DNA of 64,000 nucleotides, from contig NZ_CP011039.1 of assembly GCF_000238255.3 (NCBI RefSeq), forward strand, positions 2,095,001 to 2,159,000. The letters run 5' to 3'. This document shows, piece after piece, positions 51,349 through 64,000 of the stretch. The notes under the pieces are model-generated. The model worked only from the letters and a program-made list of their open reading frames with translations. It had not been told where the DNA came from and did not search any database. The position numbers were made by a program, and so were the translations under genes. The stretch is from Pseudoalteromonas spongiae UST010723-006 (GTDB taxonomy: Bacteria; Pseudomonadota; Gammaproteobacteria; Enterobacterales; Alteromonadaceae). Positions within the stretch are counted from its first letter, which is position 1. The number at the start of each line of letters is the position of its first letter.

Positions 51349-51957
51349 CTACTTTTTTACTTGCGTTAAATCCAGCATATGTGAACCACGTGAAACTTTT
51401 GCAGCCAAATAGGCTTCGTTTCCATCTTTTACGTGCGCAGAAGTGCCTACTTGCTCTGCAACTTCAATACCCGCTTCTGTCAATTCTTTGATCTTGCGTG
51501 GATTGTTCGTCATCAATTTTACTTTATCTACACCCAATGCAGTGAGCATTAAGGCCGCATCTCTAAATTCACGTAAATCGTCGGCAAACCCTAAGTGATT
51601 ATTCGCTTCATAGGTGTTCATACCTTGCGACTGTAGCACGTATGCATCAATTTTATTGTATAAACCAATACCACGACCTTCTTGGCGAAGGTATAAAATA
51701 ATTCCGCCTTGCTGGTGCATAGTATGAATGCACTCTTCAAGTTGTTCGCCACAATCACAACGTGATGAATGAAACACATCACCGGTTAAACACTCTGAGT
51801 GCATACGCACTAACGGGTTGTGTTCTTTATCCGCATTGTTAAAAATTAAAGCAACATGCTCTTCACCATCTAGCAAACCATGAAATGAGACGATTTCTGC
51901 AGGGATGTTACTTTCTTTGCCAACTTTGAGCTGGACTCTTGCTCTTACTTCAGCCAC
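51349..51957 (-). CDS. ribA: GTP cyclohydrolase II
   Basis: First enzyme of riboflavin synthesis, 202 residues. It has the zinc cysteines ([20 protein letters not shown]), the catalytic region [13 protein letters not shown] and [10 protein letters not shown] prefer the GTG at 51957, preceded by GGAAATGTC, which gives the usual family length; a longer reading from 51993 exists. A single-function RibA, not fused to RibB. Confidence 0.93.
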
Positions 51958-52191
51958 GACATTTCCAACGAATAGTTTGTAATATTGTAACACTAGGCAT
52001 TTAGCCGCACTAGCGTGTACGTTTATATTTGTGCATTTTTCACATTTTCAACTGTGGAAGTTCAAACACAAAAAGGCCTTTACTTATTTTAGCAAAGACC
52101 GAAACAGCCCCTAATATAAGTAATAGACCGTCAGTTGGTTCACTTTCTTGTAAGAAAAACATAAATAGGTAGGCAGATAACATAAAACGCA

Positions 52192-52220
52192 TTGCTCTTT
52201 ACACTATTTATAAAGAGCAA
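52192..52220. terminator. hairpin downstream of the envelope operon
   Basis: 10-bp stem TTGCTCTTTA/TAAAGAGCAA with a 9-base loop, 42 bases after the operon's last stop. U-tract is poor, so it is a weak terminator or an mRNA 3'-end protector. Confidence 0.5.
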
Positions 52221-52262
52221 CACGCTAGATTTTACAAAGGCTTAAGTTTGAAACTTAATGCG

Positions 52263-53210
52263 TTAGAATGGTAAGAAATTAAACGAATAATTAAGTTTAG
52301 TTTCAGACACCAACTCAGAGCCAAAATTGATCATACGAATACGATTTACCAGTTTTCGTTCTAGTTCCGCATCGTTCAAGTCACTAGATAAGATTTGGCA
52401 ATCCTTAACTTGGCCATTTCCAGCAACCACAATCTCAACCGTTACCTTACCCTGTAAACTTGGGTTTTTACGTAAAGCACGGCGATAAAGGGTGTAAAAG
52501 GCCCCTTGGTTTTTATCAAGTACTGCACGAATGGCTTCGACTTTACGCTGCTCTAACGCTTCTTCACTAATGCTTTCACTGGCGGTTACATCACTTTGAT
52601 AACCCCCTGTTTCAGCCACAACTTCATCTCCTAACGCCACCAGCGATTTGTCGGCGAGCGCTTGCACATTCGCTTTTGCTTGCTGTTCATCGGCAATATT
52701 AAGTGGTTGTGTGGCATTCGCTTTTACGCTTACGTCTTCACTTTTAACCGTTTTACGCTTTGCTTGAGCGTTAGTCACAGGTTGCGTTGATGGCGTCAAT
52801 TTAAAATCATCACGTAGCGCGGCTAAATCATCCGCTAATGCAACAAGCCCTGCACGGCTGGCTTCTTCCTTCGCTTTTTCAAGCGCCCGTTTGGTCGGCG
52901 TTTTAGGTTTAACCTCAGCCTTTACCTCTGGCTTTACTTCTTTCACCGGCTCGGGCTTTTGCTCGATGGGCTTAATTTCAGGCTTTGGTTTTTCAGGCTT
53001 AGGCTCAACTTTAACGCGCTCAATCACCCGAGTTAAACTAGGCGGTATTTTGGCTTTCTGTGCTTTAGTTAACTCAGGTAGTTCGGTAATTTTAACAATC
53101 ACCGCAAACACTAATGTGCAAACCAAAAAGCCGTACGTTAAGCGGGTAAATAAGCGATTGTCTGAGTTGTTATAAAGCTCAAAATGGGTATTCACTGTGG
53201 CGCTTGTCAT
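52263..53210 (-). CDS. TonB-like protein with AgmX/PglI C-terminal domain
   Basis: Trans-envelope protein of 315 residues. One membrane helix (about 25-42), a Pro/Lys-rich periplasmic stretch (about 65-108), a charged linker, and a C-terminal AgmX/PglI-type domain: GAFYTLYRRALRKNPSLQGKV then VAGNGQVKDCQILSS. In Myxococcus, such domains occur in GltG and GltJ of the gliding machine. It is the last gene of the operon and overlaps an ExbD gene by ATGA, so it probably transmits motor force through the periplasm. Interaction partner is inferred. Confidence 0.85.
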   Translation of the reverse strand: MTSATVNTHFELYNNSDNRLFTRLTYGFLVCTLVFAVIVKITELPELTKAQKAKIPPSLTRVIERVKVEPKPEKPKPEIKPIEQKPEPVKEVKPEVKAEVKPKTPTKRALEKAKEEASRAGLVALADDLAALRDDFKLTPSTQPVTNAQAKRKTVKSEDVSVKANATQPLNIADEQQAKANVQALADKSLVALGDEVVAETGGYQSDVTASESISEEALEQRKVEAIRAVLDKNQGAFYTLYRRALRKNPSLQGKVTVEIVVAGNGQVKDCQILSSDLNDAELERKLVNRIRMINFGSELVSETKLNYSFNFLPF

Positions 53211-53710
53211 AATTGTTCACCACCGCCTTTTTCTGCGACTTGCTCTACTGCCAAAGATAAATCACCAAACCCTGCTTGCTGGCAGGTTTGCATAATCTTC
53301 TTTAAACGGTGATAGGCAATTTTGCCATCAGCCATAATGGTTAGCGGGCGCATATTATCAACCGCTTCGATTGATTCTGCATGTACTTTAAGCGCATTTT
53401 CAAGTGGCGAAAATACTTCTTCGCTGGCGTTATCTAAATCATTTAAGTCAGCAATCAATTGCCCTTGCAAGATAAGCGCTTTGTTACTCACCATCAGTAC
53501 CAAAGTTTCTTGTGCGAGCGCTTGTTTTGACGCTTTAGGTAAATCAATATTTTTATTTGCATCAAGCACTTGTACCGTCGATGAATTAACGATTAAGAAA
53601 AATACTAAAATCGTAAAAATATCCATCAGAGAGACTAGGCTCAACTTAGCTTGCTGATTTGCTCTGCGATGATGGCGCTCCATACGAAGTGCTCTTACTG
53701 ATTTTTTCAT
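53207..53710 (-). CDS. ExbD/TolR family protein, Asp retained
   Basis: Proton-channel partner of 167 residues: a basic N terminus, one membrane helix (about 26-46) and a periplasmic domain. Asp30 lies in SLVSLMDIFTILVFF at the site of the proton-carrying Asp of ExbD/TolR. It overlaps both neighbours by ATGA. With the second ExbD and the single ExbB it would form a stator-like proton channel. Confidence 0.9.
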   Translation of the reverse strand: MKKSVRALRMERHHRRANQQAKLSLVSLMDIFTILVFFLIVNSSTVQVLDANKNIDLPKASKQALAQETLVLMVSNKALILQGQLIADLNDLDNASEEVFSPLENALKVHAESIEAVDNMRPLTIMADGKIAYHRLKKIMQTCQQAGFGDLSLAVEQVAEKGGGEQL

Positions 53711-54213
53711 AACGCCTCCACCAACGCATCACCTAAGGCGATATCTGGAAACAACTCAGCATCAACCACCGACGCCACAACAACGGCTTGATAACTACGA
53801 ACCGTTTCCATCGTTGTAATCAAGGTTTGGTAATCAACGTCTTCGGCAATTAACAAAGTGATGTCTTTTTTATCCACCCCTTTTTCAAGCAATAGATTTT
53901 TTACGTCTTTAAGCGCGAGCTGAACTTGATCAAATGGATACGTTTCATCTTGCTTGGCAAACTGTTTAAGCGGTGCACCTGCTGGGTAGTAAATTGTGAT
54001 AGCATCATTAGTTACTTCAAGTTGCAGTTCTTTTTCTTTGAGCTGCTCAGCACTTTGATTTGCTAATAATGGTGGCAATTTTAACTGCATCACGGTGATG
54101 TGCGAAAACACCATCATCATCAGCAACACAGGCACAAGCACAATCATCAAACTCATAAATGACGTAATATCCAGCTCAGCATCTTGCCTATTTGGCAACT
54201 TGCGGCGAAACAT
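53707..54213 (-). CDS. ExbD/TolR family protein, key Asp replaced by Ser
   Basis: ExbD homologue of 168 residues, with one membrane helix (about 17-39) and a periplasmic domain. In the helix, DITSFMSLMIVLVPVLL aligns with the ExbD NVTPFIDVMLVLLII segment; the proton-binding Asp position is Ser21. Asp15 lies just before the membrane. It is therefore likely a structural partner of the neighbouring ExbD that keeps its Asp. It follows the ExbB gene by 10 bases. Confidence 0.88.
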   Translation of the reverse strand: MFRRKLPNRQDAELDITSFMSLMIVLVPVLLMMMVFSHITVMQLKLPPLLANQSAEQLKEKELQLEVTNDAITIYYPAGAPLKQFAKQDETYPFDQVQLALKDVKNLLLEKGVDKKDITLLIAEDVDYQTLITTMETVRSYQAVVVASVVDAELFPDIALGDALVEAL

Positions 54214-54223
54214 AGTCGTCCCC

Positions 54224-54880
54224 TTAATCTGTTTGACGTGTTTTTTGCGAAACGAGATTGTGCTTGGTTAATAAATTAAGACACTTTACGCCCGCCATTT
54301 CCAAGCCATCAATAATTTCGGTTGTTTTTGTTTGTAATACTGAGTGACAAAGTAGCAGCGGAATTGCAGCAATTAGACCAAACGCTGTAGTGTTCATTGC
54401 AACCGAGATACTTGCCGAAAGCAATGACGCCTTTTCTGCAGGGTCAGCATCAGCAACCGCCGAAAAGGCCGCAATCAAGCCGATAATCGTGCCTAATAAA
54501 CCTAGCAAGGTAGCAATATTGGCAAGCGTAGCTAAATAAGCCGTGCGCTTTTCAAGGCGCGGCATTAATTCAAGTACTTGCTCTTCCATCGCATATTCAA
54601 TTTCTTCACGGCGCTGCGTATGTTCAATACGCTCAAGGCCTGAACTTATAATTTTTGCCACGCCTGCATTACTCTTTTGATTAAGCACTTGCTTATAATC
54701 GCCTTTCGCTAACTGAGGCATAAGCTGCTTAAAGGCTTTTTGATTGGCTAACTTAGCACCCGTCAGCACAAAAAAGCGCTCTAGGGCAATCGCCAGTCCA
54801 ATCGCTAACACGATTGCAATCGGTAACATAAAGCTACCACCATCTTGAAAAAATCTGACAACAGTATCGAAACTTTCCAT
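54224..54880 (-). CDS. MotA/TolQ/ExbB proton channel family protein
   Basis: Inner-membrane protein of 218 residues with three membrane helices (about 13-32, 130-150, 165-187). The conserved LLGTIIGLIAAF and AMNTTAFGLIAAIP segments match TolQ/ExbB. It should form the proton channel with the two ExbD proteins. The start at 54880 is set by GGAG six bases upstream; an open TTG at 54892 is rejected. Confidence 0.95.
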   Translation of the reverse strand: MESFDTVVRFFQDGGSFMLPIAIVLAIGLAIALERFFVLTGAKLANQKAFKQLMPQLAKGDYKQVLNQKSNAGVAKIISSGLERIEHTQRREEIEYAMEEQVLELMPRLEKRTAYLATLANIATLLGLLGTIIGLIAAFSAVADADPAEKASLLSASISVAMNTTAFGLIAAIPLLLCHSVLQTKTTEIIDGLEMAGVKCLNLLTKHNLVSQKTRQTD

Positions 54881-54905
54881 TTTAAACTCCAAATGTAACC
54901 GTTAA

Positions 54906-55202
54906 TTATTGGTTATTGTTTTTATTTTGCGATGTATGAAACGCAATCTGACGCTGTAACTTTGCTGGGTCGATTGCGGTAATTTTATGACGCGGCCTAA
55001 TCGTTAATTTTGGCTTGGGTAGTGTCACTCGTGACAAGTCTTGCCACGGCAAAATTGACATAAACTTCGGCTCTTCTTGTGAGCCCGATATAGTTGTTTG
55101 TAATTCAATTTTTTTGCTTTGAGTGGATTGCTCTTTTGGTGTTTCTTTTGCCACCGAATGCACAGTAAAGAAGAGCAATAAAACACTTAAGTATCTAGCC
55201 AT
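54906..55202 (-). CDS. small exported protein of unknown function
   Basis: 98-residue protein with a signal peptide (MARYLSVLLLFFTVHSVA) and a short basic mature part containing FMSILPWQDLSRVTLPKPK. It overlaps the TPR lipoprotein gene by 8 bases and precedes the ExbB gene by 25 bases. Its tight place in the operon suggests a role in the complex. No family recognised. Confidence 0.75.
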   Translation of the reverse strand: MARYLSVLLLFFTVHSVAKETPKEQSTQSKKIELQTTISGSQEEPKFMSILPWQDLSRVTLPKPKLTIRPRHKITAIDPAKLQRQIAFHTSQNKNNNQ

Positions 55203-55893
55203 TTTCGTTTGCTCCGCGTTGTTTAAGTTGGTGCTCTAAATCCACAAGCCATGTCGCAACTTGGCGATAGCTTTGAGACTCCTCAGGAACAAGCATTAAG
55301 TAAGTGTTATACACCGCTACTGCTTGCTCCTTTTGATCTAAGTAAAGGTCTAGCAAAATGCCTTTATTGATATAACTTGCTGCAAATCCCGGCCAACTTG
55401 CGATTGCCGAATCATAAAGCGCAAGCGCCTCGCTAAATTCGCCCTTTTCGCGCTTCAATAACGCCAGTTCATTTGCCGCGTAGTAGTTGTATTTGTTAGC
55501 GTTTACCGCCGCCTCTAAATATTCTAAATACAAGGTGCTTTGCTCTGCTTGTTTTGCCAAGTACGCTAATTGCAAATACGCGCCAGACAGATTTGGGTAT
55601 TGCAAGGTAAGGTTCGTGAAATGCTGCTTCGCTAGCGCTAATTTACCCTCTTTTTTGTAGGTAAGCGCTTTTTCGAACGCGGCTTTTGCATCATCCGATG
55701 CGCTTGTTTGCAGGTAATAGTTAGGCGCTTGCAGTAACTTTTCTTTCTCGCTTAAGGGTACCTGCACTTCGTTTGTTTCGGCAGTTTGTTCTGCTTGTTT
55801 GATAGTTTCAGGGGCTGTTTGACACGCTGCTAACGAAAACAGCAAGACCAACAAGCCACAGCGCTTAGTAGAACAAAGCTTAATAAATTGCAT
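55195..55893 (-). CDS. TPR lipoprotein (GltE-like)
   Basis: Lipoprotein of 232 residues with signal ending LAAC and three or four tetratricopeptide repeats (about 60-200: AFEKALTYKKEGKLALAKQHF, AYLQLAYLAKQAE, GEFSEALALYDSAI). The start at 55893 is fixed by GGAG and the signal peptide; it overlaps the upstream gene by 14 bases. Similar TPR lipoproteins accompany AglRQS/Glt-type machines. Confidence 0.87.
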   Translation of the reverse strand: MQFIKLCSTKRCGLLVLLFSLAACQTAPETIKQAEQTAETNEVQVPLSEKEKLLQAPNYYLQTSASDDAKAAFEKALTYKKEGKLALAKQHFTNLTLQYPNLSGAYLQLAYLAKQAEQSTLYLEYLEAAVNANKYNYYAANELALLKREKGEFSEALALYDSAIASWPGFAASYINKGILLDLYLDQKEQAVAVYNTYLMLVPEESQSYRQVATWLVDLEHQLKQRGANENG

Positions 55894-58678
55894 GATTTTC
55901 TCCGGGCTCAACTTCCTTTTTAGCAAAGCGCGCGGGCATTAGCTTTGCTAACGCGGTGAGCGTTTTTTTGATCCATTCGTCATAAAGACCTGAATGCAGT
56001 AATTGATTATTGCGTGCGTACAGTTCTATTGCCTGATCTTCAAAGGGTATCGCTTGCTCTTCAAGTAACAACTCGTACTGTTCTAACGCAAGATCTTTAA
56101 GCTGCTTTGGCCTTTCTGACGACATAATATCTTGCGCCATCAGGTGGTAGATTTGTGCAATCTTAAAATTCGCCTGCGTGGAGTACTGGCCAAGTGCGTA
56201 ATCTGCCAACTGTTGATAACGCTCAAGCGCCACAGTCATATGTTTACGCTTGCGCGCTAAACTTGTTTTTAGCGGTACGGTTAATTTACTTTTTTGGTAA
56301 ACATAAAACGCATCGTTAGCAAAGACCTCGGTTGCTTTAGCGGCCTCGGTTTTAGCCCAAGTGAGTTCACTCTCGGGGGCAACTTTATAAGCGGCGATAA
56401 TTTTGTTTAACCAAAAGCGACGTTCACTGGCTTTATTTTGTTTTTGATAAATATTTGCCAGTTCCACTTTTGCCTGCAGGTTTTGTGCGAATGGTGTTGG
56501 GTAACTGTGAGCGTATGTACGAAACTGCAGACGCGCATTTTCAATATCGCCCATATTGCGATAATGCTCAGCACTTTGATAGAGCGAAATACGACGCGTA
56601 TTTTCATCACTGTGGCTAGTTGCAAGATAAGCGTACTGCGCAGCCAGCTTATCGCCTTGTTGTGTATTTTTATAAATCGCTATTTTTTGCGTTTGCAGCG
56701 ACTCAATATTTTTTGACGTTGGATAACGTATAATAAAATCGTCGACCCACTTGCTCGCTTGGCTAAATAACTGCAACGATATGAGGTATTGCGTTAAATT
56801 GTATTGTACTTGCTCACGGTACAATGTGGATGGCAACAAGGTTAACAGCGCAATGTATTTATCTGCTGCGAGCTGCACATTGGTCGCCGCCACAGCTTCA
56901 GCCTGCTTAATCATACTTTGCGCTAGATTTTCGCGCACTAAAGATGCTTGCTCTGATGACTTTGCTAACAACTGCTTGTAAGCACTCTCGGCGCTTGCAT
57001 AATCTTGTAAATTGTAATGGCTGTGTGCCGCTAGCAGCTGCGCTTGATACATTTCAGAATCAGATAAACTAAACTGTTCAACGTGCGCAAACTTTGTTAG
57101 CAAAACATCATACATTTGACGTTCAAATAATAAATTAAACGCTTGTAATACAACAGTACTTGCCGATTTGTGCGTGCTGAACAAAGTTGCAAACTTAAGC
57201 CAGTTATCAACGACTTCAACTACAAATTCGTGTTGTCTTGCGTCACCGCGTTGTGATCTTTGTTTATTAGCAAGCTGTGTTTTGTAAATTGATACAACTG
57301 CAAACCCTGCATCACTTTGGTATTTGTTCGGCTCGGCTGAATAGGCAATTGTTTGGTACTCAGATAACGCTTTTTGCCATTGCTGACTTTGATACAAACT
57401 CTCAGCTAACAAGTAATGGCTGTCGATATCGCCTTGTTGCTTTAGTTGTAAGGTGTCGAGATAACGCTGATAACCTATAGCGGCTGCGCTAAACGCAGTA
57501 ATCGCGTTTTCATTTTGCTTAGCAAGTTGTTGCCCTTGATAATAACTGCGATCTGCGTATTTCTTTTCAAGAGTCTTTAAGGCAAGATAATGTGCATCTG
57601 TTGGTTCCGTCGCTAAGTAGGTGCTGCCAACACCAAATTCGCGAATAAATTGCTGCTCATAATCCGTTAGTAATAATTTAAAGTTCGCTTTTTTAAACAC
57701 CGACATTTGCGCCAAGGCAAAATCTACTTTGTGGTTTGGCTCTGGCGATGTGGTAATAAAGCTCTGATAGGTTTTGGCCGCATCAAGATAGCGTTTTTGC
57801 TCGATATAGTAATTTGCCAGCGAGTCAAAATTCATAAAGCTAAACGCTTGCCAACCATACTGCTGATAATGAGAAACCGGATCTTGTTCAAAATCACTAT
57901 ATGAGAAAATCACACTCATAATACGCAATGTATCCGCTACTAAATAACGGTCGCTATTATTAAGCTGTTCGATATTTATTACCGTCTTACCATCTTGCTC
58001 AAGGGCAAGACTAAGTACTTGCGTAAAGCTATTAAGCGATGCTTGATAGTTAAACAATTTAAAATCTGACCATGCCAGCATATAGCGCGATGTACTGACA
58101 AGTGGCGAGTCGGGATAACTTTCAACCAGCGTTAGATAACGATTTTTCGCTTGCTCATACTGCTTTTGGTTAAACATGTATTCGCCTTGGCGGAAAATCA
58201 GCTCTTCATTATGGGCAAAGTCAGGATAGTCGCGAATTAGTTCGCTCGTCACATCAAATGCCGCTTGCTGATCCCCTTTTAAGAAATACGCTTTGGCTAA
58301 TTGATAAAGTACCTCATCTCGCCCATCTAGTGCTTCAGAGTTTGCCAACAACGCCAAATACTGATTAACCGTATTATCAAAGTAACCAGAATCTTGTGTT
58401 ACACCTTGTTCTTGCGCGAGTTGCTGTTGTTCTAAGCTTAACTGGGCTAAGCGACTATTCGCTTGTTGTCGTGCACTTGCTTTAGGTGCAAGCGCGACAA
58501 TTTCTTGATATGCAGCAGCAAGTTGCTCAGGTGTAGGTGCAGCTTCTGTAACCGTGGTTTGTGGTAACTCTGTCGCTAAGTCGAGTTCTCCCAAAGTGTT
58601 ACGTTTAGCCGGTTCTGGCTGCGTTAAAAAGCACGCAGTCAAACTCAATGACAATACACTCACAGTTAAGCGCTTCAT
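55880..58678 (-). CDS. large TPR lipoprotein
   Basis: Exported lipoprotein of 932 residues, signal MKRLTVSVLSLSLTAC. The chain is nearly all helical repeats, with readable TPR units such as YQLAKAYFLKGDQQAAFDVT, KQYEQAKNRYLTLVESYPDSPL and QKALSEYQTIAY. It starts in an ATGA overlap with the previous gene. A scaffold between the outer membrane and periplasmic parts of the complex is likely; it resembles the large TPR proteins of Glt systems. Confidence 0.88.
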   Translation of the reverse strand: MKRLTVSVLSLSLTACFLTQPEPAKRNTLGELDLATELPQTTVTEAAPTPEQLAAAYQEIVALAPKASARQQANSRLAQLSLEQQQLAQEQGVTQDSGYFDNTVNQYLALLANSEALDGRDEVLYQLAKAYFLKGDQQAAFDVTSELIRDYPDFAHNEELIFRQGEYMFNQKQYEQAKNRYLTLVESYPDSPLVSTSRYMLAWSDFKLFNYQASLNSFTQVLSLALEQDGKTVINIEQLNNSDRYLVADTLRIMSVIFSYSDFEQDPVSHYQQYGWQAFSFMNFDSLANYYIEQKRYLDAAKTYQSFITTSPEPNHKVDFALAQMSVFKKANFKLLLTDYEQQFIREFGVGSTYLATEPTDAHYLALKTLEKKYADRSYYQGQQLAKQNENAITAFSAAAIGYQRYLDTLQLKQQGDIDSHYLLAESLYQSQQWQKALSEYQTIAYSAEPNKYQSDAGFAVVSIYKTQLANKQRSQRGDARQHEFVVEVVDNWLKFATLFSTHKSASTVVLQAFNLLFERQMYDVLLTKFAHVEQFSLSDSEMYQAQLLAAHSHYNLQDYASAESAYKQLLAKSSEQASLVRENLAQSMIKQAEAVAATNVQLAADKYIALLTLLPSTLYREQVQYNLTQYLISLQLFSQASKWVDDFIIRYPTSKNIESLQTQKIAIYKNTQQGDKLAAQYAYLATSHSDENTRRISLYQSAEHYRNMGDIENARLQFRTYAHSYPTPFAQNLQAKVELANIYQKQNKASERRFWLNKIIAAYKVAPESELTWAKTEAAKATEVFANDAFYVYQKSKLTVPLKTSLARKRKHMTVALERYQQLADYALGQYSTQANFKIAQIYHLMAQDIMSSERPKQLKDLALEQYELLLEEQAIPFEDQAIELYARNNQLLHSGLYDEWIKKTLTALAKLMPARFAKKEVEPGENHAIY

Positions 58679-60474
58679 AATGCGTCACCTTTGCTACTAT
58701 CTACCTGCATTGCCAGTGCTTCAAGCGCGATACTACGCATCACTTTTAACTTAAATTGGTCATCGGCTAAAAACTGTGATGATGCCTTTAAGTCGTCCAA
58801 CAGTAGCTGTTGAATTTCAGCGACTTGCTTATTAATCAGGGTATTTACACTTTGTTGGTTTAATGCCAATTGTTGCTGCGTTTTTGCCAACCGTTCATTA
58901 AGGGCATTAAAATCCCGTTGCGATTCAATTAACGCTTGGCTGTTATTATATTGCGACTGTGCTTTATCTAGCATAAGTTGCGCTTGTGCAAGTTGCTGCT
59001 TATGCGCTTGGTAGCGCTCGTCAAATTGATAATCTTGCTGCCATACTAAAATACCTTTTAAGCGTTCTAAACGCGCTTGTTGCGATGCGATATTGCGAGA
59101 CGATTTGAGTGAGTCAATTTTATGTTGGGCTGATAAAATACGCTTTTGCGCTTGCAGTTCTGTTTTATTTAATAAGCCACTGCGAGTATTTTTAGCCTTA
59201 TTTAATGATGCTTGTAACACTTGCAACTGCTGCTGTTGCTGGCGCAAATCAGATAAGTAGTTTGGTAAATTAGTAGCTTGGATAATGCGATTTTGACGGG
59301 CTGCCTTTTCTTGCAATAACGCAGCATAATTAGTGAGCTGACGCTGTTGCACATTAAATTGCGAAGCTAATTCTGTTAACTCAAAAAGTGCATGGCGTTT
59401 TGCATCAAAATCATCGCTTAACAATCCAACATGAAGTATATCCATGTAACCTTTAAGCGCAGTGTCATTTTGTAATGTATCACGCAGCCATGCCGTATTA
59501 TTGACCTGTTTATTCACCGCATCTAAGCGCGTATTAAAGGCGACAAATTGCTGCTCTGCGGCATCTATTGCATCAACAGCGAGTGCAAAACGTTCAGTAC
59601 TAACAAACACATGTGCTTTAGCGGTTAATGCCTGGTGCTTCGCAAACACATCTCCGCTTGTTGATTCAATAATAACATTCAGAGCCGCCAAGGCTTTGGC
59701 GTATTGCTGCTGCATTAATAAGCTCGCAGCTAATCCGTATAACGCTTCGTTAAACCAAAGCGACTGCTGTGATACTTGCGAAAATGCCTGTTCGGCATGC
59801 GTTGCTTGGTCATTTTCTAAAGCGGCATAACCTAAAGCGAGAAAGCTTCTATCAAGTAATGCATGCTGTTCTTGGTCTAATTCTGGCAATGTTAATAATG
59901 CCAGCGCCGCATCTTGATTGCTTGGTGAACCAACTAGTATGTTATGGGCAAGGTAGTGATGTGATTGCCTTCCAACGGGCAGCTGCGATAACGCAGTATT
60001 TGCCTGTGCAGGATTACTAAGAGCTAAGCCAAGTCGCCCTTGTAAATAGTAAAAGGTGTTATGCCACGCTATGTCTTTTGTCGGAGGCGTAATTTCTGAT
60101 AGCGTTTGCTGTGCAAGCTTCGCGTCGTTATTTGCAAAATAAACCCGCGCTAATTGCAATTTAGCGTAATTCAATAAGTCTTGGTCTTGCTCACTCAGTA
60201 ATGCGTTAAAGTCACGTGCTGCCGTCATATGCAAACCATATGAAAATGCAGCGCCGGCTTTTACAACTTGAGCATCAACACCTGGGTGGTCAATGCCTCC
60301 TTTCGCATCTGCAATAGCAAATTCGGTGAGTGCTTGCTGGTAGTTTTGCTGGTAAAGCTGATACAAAGCAACACCATACTTCTCGTCACTTACAGCTGCT
60401 TGTTGCGTGGAGTTGGGTTCAGCATTCGCTTTGACCGCTAGCGCGAGCAATGTGGTAACAACCAAGGTTCTCAT
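58675..60474 (-). CDS. exported TPR and coiled-coil protein
   Basis: 599-residue exported protein (signal MRTLVVTTLLALAVKANA). The N-terminal two thirds carry TPR-like repeats (YGVALYQLYQQNYQQALTEF, AKLQLARVYFANNDAKLA); residues about 400-570 form a Gln-rich coiled coil. No lipobox. It begins three bases after the preceding gene and overlaps the next. Confidence 0.85.
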   Translation of the reverse strand: MRTLVVTTLLALAVKANAEPNSTQQAAVSDEKYGVALYQLYQQNYQQALTEFAIADAKGGIDHPGVDAQVVKAGAAFSYGLHMTAARDFNALLSEQDQDLLNYAKLQLARVYFANNDAKLAQQTLSEITPPTKDIAWHNTFYYLQGRLGLALSNPAQANTALSQLPVGRQSHHYLAHNILVGSPSNQDAALALLTLPELDQEQHALLDRSFLALGYAALENDQATHAEQAFSQVSQQSLWFNEALYGLAASLLMQQQYAKALAALNVIIESTSGDVFAKHQALTAKAHVFVSTERFALAVDAIDAAEQQFVAFNTRLDAVNKQVNNTAWLRDTLQNDTALKGYMDILHVGLLSDDFDAKRHALFELTELASQFNVQQRQLTNYAALLQEKAARQNRIIQATNLPNYLSDLRQQQQQLQVLQASLNKAKNTRSGLLNKTELQAQKRILSAQHKIDSLKSSRNIASQQARLERLKGILVWQQDYQFDERYQAHKQQLAQAQLMLDKAQSQYNNSQALIESQRDFNALNERLAKTQQQLALNQQSVNTLINKQVAEIQQLLLDDLKASSQFLADDQFKLKVMRSIALEALAMQVDSSKGDAL

Positions 60475-60477
60475 GAC

Positions 60478-60996
60478 TTACTCAATTTCTCGAATAGTGA
60501 AATCTGCTTGTTCTTTCGCGCTGTTTGCGCTGATCACCAGCTCAATTGCTTTTGCCTCATCATCTTTATTAAAGGTTAATGTAGCTGCACGTTTAATATC
60601 ACGACCTTGCGGCCCTTTACCAATAACATAAGCAGTAAGTTGGTGCTCACCTTGTTTTACATTACCTTGGTACAAACGATGTACCCCACCTTTAGCAAGC
60701 GCGTTAACTTGCTTTTCGGTATATAGATAATGAGTCGCTAGCTCGTCATCAACCATGAGTTTAATTGAGTCAATGGTGAACAGTTCACTAGCATCCATCG
60801 CGACATAGAATGCAATTTGCGTCGCCGGTGGATAAAGTAAATCTTCTTCTAAAATAAATAGGTCTCGATTGAGCGCAATTGCTTGCTGTTTTAAGTTTTC
60901 AATTTGCTCGCTAAGTGGCTTATTATCAACGCTGTACACATTAAGGCTAAGCACAGTACACAACATAATTAAGGTGTTTTTTAGCATGGTTTTCAT
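60478..60996 (-). CDS. exported protein of unknown function
   Basis: 172 residues with signal peptide (MLKNTLIMLCTVLSLNVYS). A short coiled coil (LSEQIENLKQQAIALNRDLFILEEDLLYPP) is followed by a beta-rich part (QIAFYVAM, IDSIKLMVDDELATHYLY, GEHQLTAYVIG). It looks like a periplasmic binding or adaptor domain. Not recognised, and it has no DNA-binding feature. Conserved position in the operon between DUF3570 and TPR genes. Confidence 0.75.
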   Translation of the reverse strand: MKTMLKNTLIMLCTVLSLNVYSVDNKPLSEQIENLKQQAIALNRDLFILEEDLLYPPATQIAFYVAMDASELFTIDSIKLMVDDELATHYLYTEKQVNALAKGGVHRLYQGNVKQGEHQLTAYVIGKGPQGRDIKRAATLTFNKDDEAKAIELVISANSAKEQADFTIREIE

Positions 60997-61008
60997 TGTT
61001 ACTTTTCC

Positions 61009-62148
61009 CTAGTACCAAAGCGACACATAAGCTCTTAGCACATTTGCTGAGAAACTATAAAAATCTTCTTGCCCCGGATTATCCGTTTGTAGCACGTTTC
61101 TAAAATCGTCATAGTCAAAACGAATATGATCCCACGCAAAGTTTACGCTGGCACTTTTTATCAAGCTGGAACGATCAAAAGTATGTAAATAACGTGCTTT
61201 GAGCCCAATGGTTAAATCATTAAAAGAACTCATTTCTTTATCACGTGCCATAAAATTAAACTGATCTTTTCTATCAAACATATCTCGATAAAAGTCGGCT
61301 TTGCTTTGCGTGTAATGGCGCACATGAAAATCAATTAACCAATTATCATATAACGCCTGACTGTAACCGAGCTTATAGTTACTGGCAGCTATGCCCCAAG
61401 TATCACTAAAATAACGAACTTCACCGTATAGTGCGGCGTTGATTGGCAAAAAATAGCGGGTTCTGAGCGCTGCAGCATTGCTGGTGCGCGTTTCAGGGTA
61501 AATCTCGGTAGCGTAGCTGTAGCCAAGTGCAGCGGTGTCATCACGATAGCGGTAAGAGCGGTACGGGTTATTTAAATAGCCCTGTTCGGTAATCGCCTCA
61601 ATATTGAAATCAAAGGTCCAGTTTTTGCTCGCCACTTGCGACCAAGACAATGCATAGTTGGCGCGCTTCACTTCTTCACTAAAAAGCGCATTGCCGTTTT
61701 GCATCACAATATCGTCGCCTTGGGCATAGCTCAAACTAAGCACCGATAAATCACCAAAAAAGCTCTGACTAACAGCCAGTTTGTAGCTTTTTGCGTCGTA
61801 ATCATTTTCTTGCGATTGGCTGTAACCAAGTGAGAACAACGTTTTTTCATTTAGAAAATCGACGCCTACAGACTGCTCGTCACGTTCTTCTTTATAAGGG
61901 CTGGCCGTTGCCAATACGTCAATTGATGCCGAACTTACCGAGTCCACATAATAATTAGCCGAAACCGATACCGCTTTGGAAACTTTTTTACGAATTAAAA
62001 TCGACGGACCGTCAATGCTCATGCCGCCACCATCATAACTGTGGTACATCGCATCAACACGATCTTCCGGTAATACCGCCGCGCAAATACTTAAACTCAC
62101 GAACATAAAGCTCGCAACAAGGTATTTAAATAGATTAGTTACAGCCAC
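61009..62148 (-). CDS. DUF3570 outer-membrane protein
   Basis: Beta-barrel-like protein of 379 residues by the preferred start. The DUF3570 hallmark is clear: MYHSYDGGGMSIDGPSILIRK followed by SVSSASIDVLATASPYKEERDE. Its end, AYVSLWY, suits a barrel. The signal peptide (VTNLFKYLVASFMFVSLSICAA) implies a start near GTG 62148 with AGGTGG upstream, overlapping the DUF4266 stop by 14 bases; reading extends to 62277. DUF3570 and DUF4266 commonly co-occur with FAD-protein transferase genes in flavinylation-linked clusters. Confidence 0.83.
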   Translation of the reverse strand: MAVTNLFKYLVASFMFVSLSICAAVLPEDRVDAMYHSYDGGGMSIDGPSILIRKKVSKAVSVSANYYVDSVSSASIDVLATASPYKEERDEQSVGVDFLNEKTLFSLGYSQSQENDYDAKSYKLAVSQSFFGDLSVLSLSYAQGDDIVMQNGNALFSEEVKRANYALSWSQVASKNWTFDFNIEAITEQGYLNNPYRSYRYRDDTAALGYSYATEIYPETRTSNAAALRTRYFLPINAALYGEVRYFSDTWGIAASNYKLGYSQALYDNWLIDFHVRHYTQSKADFYRDMFDRKDQFNFMARDKEMSSFNDLTIGLKARYLHTFDRSSLIKSASVNFAWDHIRFDYDDFRNVLQTDNPGQEDFYSFSANVLRAYVSLWY

Positions 62149-62362
62149 AGCCACCACCTGATGTGCCTTCTGCACCCTTTGCGCCTTCCCGTGCTTGATA
62201 AACATGGTGAATGTAACCCGATTCAACTGCATCAAGCTGCCACTGCATAACAGGTTGTGCAAGGTTTTCACGCTCATACGGTTTTACCCACGGCTCAAAG
62301 CCATCTGTTGCAGCACAGCCGGTTAGCAATAAAGTAAAACAAATCGCAATTAATTTATTCAC
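62135..62362 (-). CDS. DUF4266 small lipoprotein
   Basis: 75-residue lipoprotein (signal to LLLTGC) ending in the family's Gly/Cys tail GGGCGCN, with VKPYERENLAQPVM and a histidine-containing YIHHVYQAREG segment. The start is GTG at 62362, overlapping the thioredoxin stop by 8 bases. The terminal Cys pair may bind metal or form a thioether or disulfide with the adjacent thioredoxin's substrate; this is inference. Confidence 0.87.
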   Translation of the reverse strand: MNKLIAICFTLLLTGCAATDGFEPWVKPYERENLAQPVMQWQLDAVESGYIHHVYQAREGAKGAEGTSGGGCGCN

Positions 62363-62849
62363 GGATCAATGCCTTAACCATTTTCTTATAGAGTTTTTCA
62401 TCGCCAGCCTGATAGCCATAATGGACATAGCGTAAGTTGCTATTGCGGTCAATCACAACCGTTGTTGGCATGGCTTCTACATCGTAAAGCTTACTAACGG
62501 TATTTTGCTCATCAAGCAAAATTGGAAAAGACACGTTAAGCTCATTAATAAACTCTTTTGCCTTTTGGTTTTGCTGTTCCACATTAACGCCAAGCACGGT
62601 AAAGCCTAAATCGCTGTATTTAGCGTGTAACTCGTCAAGTAATGGCATTTCTTTACGGCACGGTCCGCACCAGCTCGCCCAAAAGTTAATCAGTACAACC
62701 TGACCACTTAGCTCTTTTAAGCGCACGTTATCACCGCTTAACGCCTTTAATGTAAAGTCGGGCGCACTTTTATTGAGCTCTGCCGATGTTGCATTGCCCA
62801 CAAACATGCTGGTTAGAAATAATGTGATGATGATTATTATTTTTTTCAT
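62355..62849 (-). CDS. TlpA/ResA-like periplasmic thioredoxin
   Basis: 164-residue thiol-disulfide oxidoreductase with signal peptide and the WASWCGPCRKEMPLL active site, and the cis-Pro segment AMPTTVVID. TlpA-type proteins reduce periplasmic cysteines. Its place before DUF4266 (with two terminal Cys) suggests that protein as a client. Start is ATG at 62849. Confidence 0.93.
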   Translation of the reverse strand: MKKIIIIITLFLTSMFVGNATSAELNKSAPDFTLKALSGDNVRLKELSGQVVLINFWASWCGPCRKEMPLLDELHAKYSDLGFTVLGVNVEQQNQKAKEFINELNVSFPILLDEQNTVSKLYDVEAMPTTVVIDRNSNLRYVHYGYQAGDEKLYKKMVKALIRE

Positions 62850-62861
62850 TAAACAAATACC

Positions 62862-63509
62862 TTAGAAATAAACGCTTAAGCCAAGCGTAAATGCGAGGTT
62901 ATGCACAGTTTCAGGATCACCTAAAATGTCACTTTCAAATACGTAGTCGGTCATATCGATTTGCACCGTGACAAAATCGTTCAGCAACATGCGGTAACCC
63001 GCACCAACAGATACCGTAAAACGGTCGTCACCACCAAATTCGGTGGTGCCTGCGCCTAACGTAAAATAGTAAGCACTATTAAGCGTGAGGTTCTGTGACA
63101 CAAAGGTTTCGCCCTTAAGGTTATAACCGATACCTAAATCCAGTAACTGATAATCGCGCTCTTCATCTGTCAATAATTTTGCGCCACCGCTAAGCTTTTC
63201 GTAGCTTGTTTCTCCGGCGGTTGCTGTGCCGTATTTAAAATAGCTAAAAAAGTCTTCATTGATGTGATACGCCAACTTTGCACCCGCCAGCGAAGTCGAT
63301 GAAAAGTCAGCAATTGAGATAACGCCACCATAAACACCAAATTCAAAATCATCGCTATCTATCTGCGCTTCTTCTATATCGGTACGTGCTATTTGCGGGT
63401 CAACAACTGGGCTTACTTGTTGCTCATTATTTGCGTTACTTGGCGCTGAAAAAGTCAATGCTAAGGTTGCTAACGCAGTTAGAAAAATACCGTGATACCT
63501 AATTTCCAC
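62862..63509 (-). CDS. outer-membrane beta-barrel protein
   Basis: 215 residues, signal MEIRYHGIFLTALATLALTFSAPSNA from a GTG start, then a beta-barrel: alternating strands (YFSYFKYGTA-like, YRMLLNDFVTVQIDMTDYVF) and end FTLGLSVYF with terminal Phe. Similar to TIGR04565-type barrels that recur in myxobacterial Glt clusters. Its start lies 31 bases inside the preceding barrel gene. Confidence 0.8.
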   Translation of the reverse strand: MEIRYHGIFLTALATLALTFSAPSNANNEQQVSPVVDPQIARTDIEEAQIDSDDFEFGVYGGVISIADFSSTSLAGAKLAYHINEDFFSYFKYGTATAGETSYEKLSGGAKLLTDEERDYQLLDLGIGYNLKGETFVSQNLTLNSAYYFTLGAGTTEFGGDDRFTVSVGAGYRMLLNDFVTVQIDMTDYVFESDILGDPETVHNLAFTLGLSVYF

Positions 63510-64000
63510 AACTCTAAATCCTCTGTAACATCACGCTCGGTAAGTGCGCTAAAACGTTTGTATTCTGCTTTAAAGACAAAACGACTGGTAATATATGTGT
63601 TTAAGCCCACAGTGGCGCTTAATAAGTCTGACTGTCTGGTTTCATCGCCACCACCAATAATCGGTGTTTTTGGCGTTGTCCAAACCTGACCTGCACCGAT
63701 ACCTAAATAAGGTGAAAAGCGCCAATGGGGAAATGGGTGATGGAAAACCGATAAATCAACTAGCTGATTTTTTGCCACTGAACCAAGTGCATAGCTGTAC
63801 TCTAATTGACTCGATAAATGACGCGTAAAACGCCAACTCGCATTAACTGACTGGCTATTTACACCTTCCAACTGGCCAAGACCAATACCAAAGCTAAATG
63901 TCTGGTTTTCAAATGCATCAAGCGTTGCGTCTGTCACTAAAAAAGGTTTACCGTCTAATGTTAAGGTTTCAACCAATTCTTGTTGTTTTGCCCAGCCTTG
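63479..64000 (-). CDS. outer-membrane beta-barrel protein (5' truncated)
   Basis: The frame is open to the right edge, so the N terminus is outside the window. The visible 173 residues make beta strands (FSFGIGLGQLEG, LSSQLEYSYALGSVAK, FSPYLGIGAGQVWTT) ending GITVFF with a terminal Phe. It appears paralogous to the next barrel gene and is first of the visible operon. Confidence 0.8.
   Translation of the reverse strand, partial: QGWAKQQELVETLTLDGKPFLVTDATLDAFENQTFSFGIGLGQLEGVNSQSVNASWRFTRHLSSQLEYSYALGSVAKNQLVDLSVFHHPFPHWRFSPYLGIGAGQVWTTPKTPIIGGGDETRQSDLLSATVGLNTYITSRFVFKAEYKRFSALTERDVTEDLELWKLGITVFF

Follow-up and report, generated by a model that had tools for sequence, protein, structure and literature searches.

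What does the long minus-strand operon at the right-hand end of this Pseudoalteromonas spongiae sequence do? Within the window, the whole stretch of 64,000 nucleotides that was analysed, an ORF survey of the minus strand from 52263 to 64000 recovered all 14 genes, with the overlaps and short gaps that a sequence-only reading had reported: one partial and one whole barrel, a thioredoxin-like protein, DUF4266, DUF3570, three TPR proteins, two small exported proteins, ExbB, two ExbD proteins and a TonB/AgmX-type protein. That reading left the output as export, surface transport or redox; redox is now favoured, since haem proteins adjoin. The features are as follows.

63479..64000, minus (partial; whole gene 63479-64210 in the genome): SH3_3 domain plus C-terminal OMP_myx_plus-type barrel
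62862..63509, minus: outer membrane barrel, TIGR04565 OMP_myx_plus (153.2 bits, cut-off 60)
62355..62849, minus: exported TlpA/ResA-like thioredoxin with CXXC (AhpC-TSA, 112 bits)
62135..62362, minus: DUF4266 small lipoprotein with GCGCN terminus (77.8 bits, cut-off 27)
61009..62277, minus: divergent DUF3570, predicted 16-strand barrel (121 bits, cut-off 25; model pLDDT 93)
60478..60996, minus: sm172, exported helix plus beta-sandwich protein (alignment; model pLDDT 87.6)
58675..60474, minus: exported TPR protein, resembling GltC only in size and place (TPR profile)
55880..58678, minus: large TPR protein with lipobox-like motif, resembling GltD only in size and place
55195..55926, minus: TPR protein with lipobox-like motif and weak GltE match (NF033758, 30.7 bits, cut-off 225)
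54906..55202, minus: sm98, small exported protein (ORF survey)
54224..54892, minus: ExbB/TolQ/AglR-type motor protein (105.7 bits, cut-off 22.9)
53707..54213, minus: ExbD1, without the membrane Asp (46.3 bits, cut-off 25.4)
53207..53710, minus: ExbD2, membrane Asp present (65.6 bits, cut-off 25.4)
52263..53210, minus: TonB-like transducer with AgmX/PglI C-terminal domain (NF033768, 67 bits, cut-off 40)
52186-52226, minus: terminator-like hairpin of 18 pairs, then a T-rich tail, after the last stop codon

Neighbouring genes are separated by -47 to +13 bp throughout the operon, except at the DUF4266/DUF3570 junction, where the ORF start is ambiguous and the mechanical start gives -143. The operon has 15 genes rather than 14, because the genome sequence beyond the window edge adds the remainder of the SH3/barrel gene and one more upstream gene, encoding an 881-amino-acid HZS_alpha protein with two CXXCH motifs. 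Next door, a divergent operon encodes a Tat-type protein and a further two proteins with CXXCH. The 18-pair hairpin is the longest terminator-like hairpin in the scanned stretch, in which 17 such hairpins were observed and 16.7 expected after shuffling.

From sm172 to TonB, the nine downstream genes resemble the Glt/Agl "core complex" that has already been described, with no known function, in gammaproteobacteria not known to glide (Luciano 2011, PMC3169522; Wartel 2013, PMC3858216), and the motor half itself is not new. As described in those papers, one ExbB-type and two ExbD-type proteins, an AgmX/PglI-type transducer, TPR proteins and further unknown genes form a single cluster. The motor genes are one of AglR type and two of AglQ/S type, the GltG-type transducer is represented at the domain level only, by AgmX/PglI, the TPR trio includes the weak GltE match, and clustering in a single region holds in 59 of the 62 named loci with room for it. 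ExbD1 has I or V in place of the membrane Asp in 94/94 distinct homologues, and ExbD2 keeps the Asp in 95/95. Profile searches with sm172 returned no family above cut-off; sm98 occurs in 70 of 80 named loci and 19 of 20 further loci. PMC3169522 and PMC3858216 assign the complex no function in gammaproteobacteria, and the word "cytochrome" is absent from both main texts, whereas here the complex is linked with barrels, haem proteins, ApbE and a flavinylation cassette.

The Myxococcus Agl-Glt gliding and Agl-Nfs spore-coat machines share the motor plan and transducer domain with the operon, and GltA, GltB and GltC (PMC4488436) present, as a likeness in plan, the same combination of a paralogous outer membrane barrel pair and a TPR partner. 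The two barrels here, of 215 and 243 amino acids, are homologous (hhalign probability 96.8, E 2.9e-10); TIGR04565 is matched by 21/22 members of the SH3/barrel family (E up to 0.01), the sole non-matching member being the window's own. The clients of the Myxococcus machines are adhesion or glycan, whereas the operon's apparent client is a set of redox proteins. At the equivalog level both GltG (45 bits, cut-off 650) and GltE (30.7 against 225) were missed, and identity with the gliding machine itself is therefore not established. The proposal of a Glt/Agl-like machine thus stands through the AgmX domain but does not extend to the GltG and GltE equivalogs, and its motor half had been published before.

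Upstream lies a divergent form of the known DUF3570/DUF4266/thioredoxin flavinylation cassette, together with the two paralogous OMP_myx_plus barrels. DUF3570, DUF4266 with its CXC and a thioredoxin-like protein, by which such cassettes are recognised, are all present; the thioredoxin hits AhpC-TSA/Redoxin and further thioredoxin models, whereas PF13899, the family given by Meheust 2021 (PMC8238504), is not among them. Its CXXC is kept in 85/85 distinct family members, and the GCGCN terminus in 77/77 distinct DUF4266 proteins. The window DUF3570 protein has lost the second flavinylation site and retains one relaxed ApbE-type motif, DSVSSAS; the relaxed form D-x-[VI]-[ST]-[GSA]-A-S occurs in 76 of 77 distinct homologues. 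The strict [S/T]GA[S/T] motif, which Meheust 2021 tested in DUF3570 (PMC8238504), is absent from the window protein and occurs somewhere in 48/77 homologues. The structure model suggests that DUF3570 is a trans-outer-membrane barrel with a covalently bound flavin.

The sequence-only reading saw no ApbE gene, which is correct for the window but not for the genome: the sequence to the right of 64000, where it advised looking, holds one at window-equivalent 72210-73175 (277.5 bits), 8.2 kb past the window and behind the divergent operon. Because the genome holds three ApbE genes, this one included, the neighbour is not the sole possible source. Among relatives, ApbE lies within the operon in locus L110 and, judged by gene order, in L166; in 9 of the 19 loci fetched past the Tat gene it is found there. 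All four families of the clusters in Meheust 2021 (PMC8238504) are thus found here, three in the operon and ApbE behind the divergent one. The locus differs from those clusters in its divergent DUF3570 class with a single relaxed motif and in its linkage to a proton motor and to haem proteins of the HZS_alpha, LamG and DUF1585 types; the paper's main text uses neither "TPR" nor "hydrazine".

Like hydrazine synthase alpha, the HZS_alpha protein (58.3 bits, cut-off 26.6) has a PD40 propeller repeat, an HZS_alpha domain in its middle and two CXXCH motifs, and it matches 5c2v_A (E 3.6e-6). It missed the hydrazine synthase alpha equivalog (32.8 bits, cut-off 800), and the likeness does not imply hydrazine chemistry here. 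Motif counts are of distinct sequences, and haem proteins of 350 amino acids or less were dropped; among those longer, HZS proteins have two CXXCH motifs in 84/87 and three in 3/87, LamG proteins two in 89/89, and DUF1585-type proteins one in 86/86. Two haem proteins of the locus carry lipobox-like motifs. An MtrCAB electron conduit was considered and rejected: there are no decahaem cytochromes, and the haem proteins of the locus have 2, 2 and 1 CXXCH.

The coupling of the motor and redox halves is well supported. Among 295 genomes of the order, with species counted as independent, sm172 occurs in 31 of the 33 with the DUF3570 class and in 6 of the 262 others, the class having been set by us from profile scores and neighbourhoods, with four members (G017, G038, G058, G127) assigned by score alone and another (G023) scoring only 34 bits. 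Five of the six exceptions with sm172 belong to a single genus (g29); the two lacking it are G038 and G127, the latter 60% complete. The module does not adjoin in 11 of 28 fetched DUF3570-class loci (one of the 11, L061, offers only 614 bp there, the others at least 7.9 kb), and in all 11 of those genomes sm172 is found elsewhere. Conversely, DUF3570 was present in 17/17 genomes picked via sm172 loci, each match within the score range of the class; two loci with another kind of DUF3570 and ApbE in the same score range (L062, L063) were excluded from family profiles and counts. Of the 62 named loci with 9.9 kb or more of downstream sequence, 59 hold all eight module genes besides sm172, and the other three, from Hahella, lack ExbB to TonB there; the named loci are the best 80 of 207 and are therefore biased toward close relatives. 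The association survives several gene arrangements, such as a Kangiella-type order of TlpA, module and ApbE, and a unified operon enclosing ApbE.

The observations of the sequence-only reading hold and its interpretation is supported in part: the profiles gave AgmX/PglI NF033768 67, TIGR04565 153.2, DUF3570 121 and DUF4266 77.8 bits, all above cut-off, AhpC-TSA (112 bits) agrees with its DUF3570/DUF4266/TlpA module, and the genes remain together in relatives when gene order is compared across loci. Because homology was found by profile and linkage in relatives, neither a lack of Glt/AgmX homology nor a scattering of the genes, the two results it had named as telling against it, was seen.

The sequences themselves show gene content, conservation, co-occurrence and motifs. 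These are most likely explained, at about an even chance, by a proton-driven envelope machine that works for a flavin/haem complex at the surface. The Glt/Agl-type trans-envelope machine, the gammaproteobacterial core complex, would have a surface redox complex as its client. ExbB and the two unlike ExbD subunits would convert the proton gradient into cycling of the AgmX-type transducer, which would act, by way of sm172 and the three TPR proteins, on the paralogous barrels. The machine would mount, move or gate an outer membrane complex of flavinylated DUF3570 barrel, HZS_alpha di-haem lipoprotein, LamG di-haem lipoprotein and DUF1585-type one-haem protein, and electrons would pass between periplasm and surface via TlpA, the DUF4266 CxC motif, FMN on DUF3570 and the haems. 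We infer what the operon does and which way electrons run, and likewise that the complex sits at the surface, that DUF3570 is flavinylated, that the motor's energy is coupled to the complex and by what path the electrons travel. Gene association is evidence of a shared pathway, not of contact between motor and redox proteins. Most of the hosts are ordinary marine heterotrophs that live aerobically, which we counted against the redox reading.

It is conceivable, if doubtful, that the motor instead exports the haem lipoproteins or the Tat protein via the barrel pair, the cargo being motor-independent thereafter. Protein secretion in Myxococcus requires a TonB-dependent transporter (PMC6434023), and the lipobox-like motifs on two haem proteins would suit such cargo, but barrels of this size are probably narrow for folded haem proteins, and no secretion signal was noticed in the course of the analysis.

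We consider it unlikely that the core complex has another task, such as Agl-Nfs-like movement of surface glycan, and that the redox linkage reflects only co-regulation or joint transfer. The related Agl-Nfs machine does transport a spore-coat polymer (PMC3858216), and among 20 further module loci, chosen because they score low or are second or separate copies, 10 lie in fetched stretches where neither a haem nor a flavin gene was recognised, so a redox client is probably dispensable for the motor. However, the halves co-occur even when unlinked in the genome and across differing gene orders, and in a TPR932 tree the loci without redox neighbours are scattered among linked ones at several separate positions, some nodes being poorly supported. 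The tree was built from large TPR proteins longer than 600 amino acids and has nine unlinked copies, one of which (L169) is a 5.4-kb contig, so that its unlinked label says little; in pooled locus counts, the tree included, at least six loci were entered twice (L042/L105, L043/L111, L039/L113, L044/L137, L046/L154, L058/L142).

Somewhat less probable again is that the module energises, in TonB-like fashion, a reductive uptake of metals or nutrients, the flavin and haem proteins reducing a substrate at the surface and the motor opening the barrels to bring it in. A TonB-like transducer does accompany ExbB/ExbD, and Meheust 2021 (PMC8238504) lists 25 DUF3570 clusters with the VIT1 iron transporter. 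Against this, among the 15 proteins of the operon, the three of the divergent one and ApbE, none matched a Pfam for a TonB-dependent receptor or a nutrient transporter, and the nutrient-system models all scored below cut-off (exbB 47.7 against 206.2, ExbD_2 18.3 against 123.45, ExbD_1 13.7 against 152.95, TonB_C 22 against 24.6). A complete engine for gliding motility is very improbable: the AgmX domain, ExbB with two ExbD proteins and OMP_myx_plus paralogues like the GltA/GltB pair in plan would fit it, but the GltG and GltE cut-offs were missed by far and the core genes are insufficient for motility according to Luciano 2011 (PMC3169522).

Judging from the genes, one long operon joins the ancestral gliding-motor core to predicted outer membrane haem/flavin proteins, and both halves travel jointly through many related genomes. 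The role of the core complex outside gliding bacteria was declared open in 2011 and 2013 (PMC3169522, PMC3858216), and no later answer was found in the literature searched. We suggest only tentatively that mounting or driving outer membrane redox proteins was the ancestral task of the later gliding machine; no less speculatively, the ancestor may have been a proton-powered, possibly mobile surface electron-transfer complex, from which gliding and spore-coat transport arose by exchange of clients. If the proposed redox function is true, a motor of the Mot/Tol/Exb kind would serve extracytosolic electron transfer. The tight haem/flavin association names a client and thereby gives this orphan motor a testable job in culturable marine bacteria.

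The 14 minus-strand genes that the sequence-only reading placed at 52263..64000 are real and stand in the order it gave. In the genome, which comprises two contigs (the window is C1:2095001-2159000), the SH3/barrel gene is completed past the window edge and is followed by one additional gene, so that the operon totals 15 genes. A divergent operon begins 64 bp off, judged by mechanical ORF starts. That reading had seen no ApbE and had left the sequence right of 64000 to be inspected; an ApbE gene is present there, and two more occur elsewhere in the genome. The features beyond the edge are:

Past the window edge, after the SH3/barrel gene: HZS protein of 881 aa, combining a PD40 propeller repeat, an HZS_alpha domain that scores 58.3 bits against a cut-off of 26.6, and a pair of CXXCH motifs
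Divergent operon: one-CXXCH protein; DUF1585 is found in 16 of 18 family members, the window genome's member falling below cut-off
Divergent operon: LamG protein, with a lipobox-like motif and two CXXCH motifs
Divergent operon, L004:10603-12183 (a fetched locus): Tat-type protein, with an RR-x-[FLIV] pattern near its start
Window-equivalent 72210-73175: ApbE, next after the Tat-type gene and convergent to it

Conservation of the Tat-type protein is strong, with column identity averaging 70% over 16 sequences, and 33 of 36 family members, fragments counted, carry the RR-x-[FLIV] pattern; searches for a Pfam family and a PDB relative found none. On the operon's own strand, 269 bp behind it, lies a gene of the riboflavin pathway, GTP cyclohydrolase II (window 51349-51993), a flavin supply adjoining a flavin cassette. 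Such a gene adjoins the module in just 2 of the 80 named loci (the best 80 of 207).

The nine downstream genes form a motor module: the exported protein sm172 (60478..60996, minus strand), three TPR proteins, the small exported protein sm98 (54906..55202, minus strand), ExbB, ExbD1, ExbD2 and an AgmX-type transducer. Among the matches listed, the closest named relative of sm172 is in Pseudoalteromonas sp. P1-9 (98% identity). In profile searches ExbB, both ExbD proteins and the C-terminal AgmX/PglI domain of the transducer passed their domain cut-offs, and the operon proteins missed the GltG and GltE equivalog cut-offs. The Glt/AgmX relationship first proposed thus holds at the level of the AgmX/PglI domain and not at that of GltG or GltE equivalogs. 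The accessible text of Luciano 2011 (PMC3169522) describes a gammaproteobacterial cluster of aglR, Q, S, gltC, D, E, G and one further gene, names it the "core complex" and states its gammaproteobacterial function to be unknown; excerpts of Wartel 2013 (PMC3858216) repeat this statement. The motor half is therefore already known in kind. With nine genes in the module, either sm172 or sm98 may be the further gene.

The two ExbD proteins differ. In ExbD1 (window 53707-54213) the membrane Asp is missing, replaced by I or V in 94/94 distinct homologues, whereas ExbD2 (window 53207-53710) keeps it (95/95). By these residues, proton carriage of the classical kind would be possible for only one of the pair, which suggests an asymmetric stator. 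We found no mention of the difference in the accessible passages of the core-complex literature. The two small barrels are paralogues (hhalign 96.8), and the whole barrel exceeds the OMP_myx_plus cut-off; 21 of 22 SH3-family members match that model, the exception being the window genome's own. As described in the available part of PMC4488436, the paralogous GltA/GltB resemble this pair in plan.

A flavinylation cassette of DUF3570, DUF4266, thioredoxin and ApbE is described in the text available from Meheust 2021 (PMC8238504). The DUF3570 of the window belongs to a divergent class whose best segments score about 88 to 144 bits within the order (34 in genome G023), compared to about 350 to 600 bits for canonical members, and further kinds score in between. 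At least three score classes occur in the order, and some genomes have two or more. The second flavin site is lost and the first is without its Gly; that first site's D, A and S residues do not vary across 48 aligned proteins, and the relaxed motif is present in 76/77 distinct homologues. In the predicted structure (pLDDT 93, 16 long strands) the motif lies where strand 3 ends and in the loop that follows, the part of lowest confidence. Loops 3-4, 9-10, 13-14 and 15-16 are long and, by the usual rule, would face the outer side.

Among 28 fetched loci of the divergent class, the HZS, DUF1585-type and LamG genes occur together in 27, and the motor module adjoins the redox genes in 17. For the other 11, one of which (L061) stops 614 bp past DUF3570, sm172 is invariably found elsewhere in the genome. 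Across 295 genomes of the order, sm172 is present in 31 of 33 with the divergent class versus 6 of 262 without it (Fisher p 1.3e-33, species taken as independent). Genera g1, g3, g7, g10 and g19 each include, among the species listed, some that carry both and others that carry neither; in g29, one species combines the two and five carry only sm172. Genomes with only other kinds of DUF3570 rarely have sm172 (1/43). Seventeen genomes were picked by way of unusually arranged sm172 loci; all 17 have a DUF3570 that exceeds the cut-off, and in every one a match falls within the divergent-class score range. One or more haem or flavin genes lie in the fetched stretch of 79 of 80 named module loci (best 80 of 207), the remaining locus being a 5.4-kb contig, and of 10 of 20 further module loci. 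A phylum-wide draw yielded sm172 in 14/398 genomes. Co-occurrence and shared loci alike bear out the expectation that these genes are conserved together in relatives.

The arrangement varies. A cytochrome operon precedes the module in Alteromonas, Paraglaciecola and Marinobacter; the module stands behind the Tat gene in Halieaceae; Kangiella and Pleionea have the order TlpA-module-ApbE; and loci L110 and L166 have a single unified operon enclosing ApbE. In a midpoint-rooted tree of the large TPR protein (55880..58678, minus strand; 110 copies), with low support at several deeper nodes, nine unlinked copies are scattered in several places among linked ones, and L212-L215 fall next to L046/L154 (support 0.997). 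No haem or flavin gene neighbours the core-complex copies L212-L215, in which a protein of ~345 aa precedes sm172; judged by the L212 and L214 sequences, this protein looks permease-like. L138, on a contig labelled as a Verrucomicrobiaceae MAG, yet bearing a typical gammaproteobacterial-type cluster, reflects either wrong binning or transfer.

Gene content, motifs and co-occurrence are read from the sequence itself. The preferred reading, at about even odds, is that the cluster encodes an envelope machine driven by protons, with a flavin/haem complex at the cell surface as its client. In such a machine the redox proteins would be exposed at the cell surface, DUF3570 would carry covalent flavin, motor and redox proteins would be in physical contact, and electrons would flow in a given direction. 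Energised uptake, secretion and hitch-hiking are the rival explanations. At the distant locus L221 (G456:C1:2101300-2121200) the barrel, SH3 barrel and module adjoin four proteins: two with ten CXXCH motifs each, one of 694 aa, and one with four CXXCH motifs. This set presumably resembles an MtrCAB conduit together with its NapC-like donor; the single case fits electron transfer. According to the accessible part of PMC8233155, a TonB C-terminal domain gene adjoins two ExbD genes and one ExbB gene at Marinobacter atlanticus ACP86_00815 to 00830, a possible counterpart of this module, and was the only gene found lower across both lifestyles and all potentials when a rubredoxin mutant was studied. 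The motor and redox halves are each known separately; a search of open-licence papers found no combined system among the matches listed. The joint system is of good interest because an orphan motor thereby gains a testable client.
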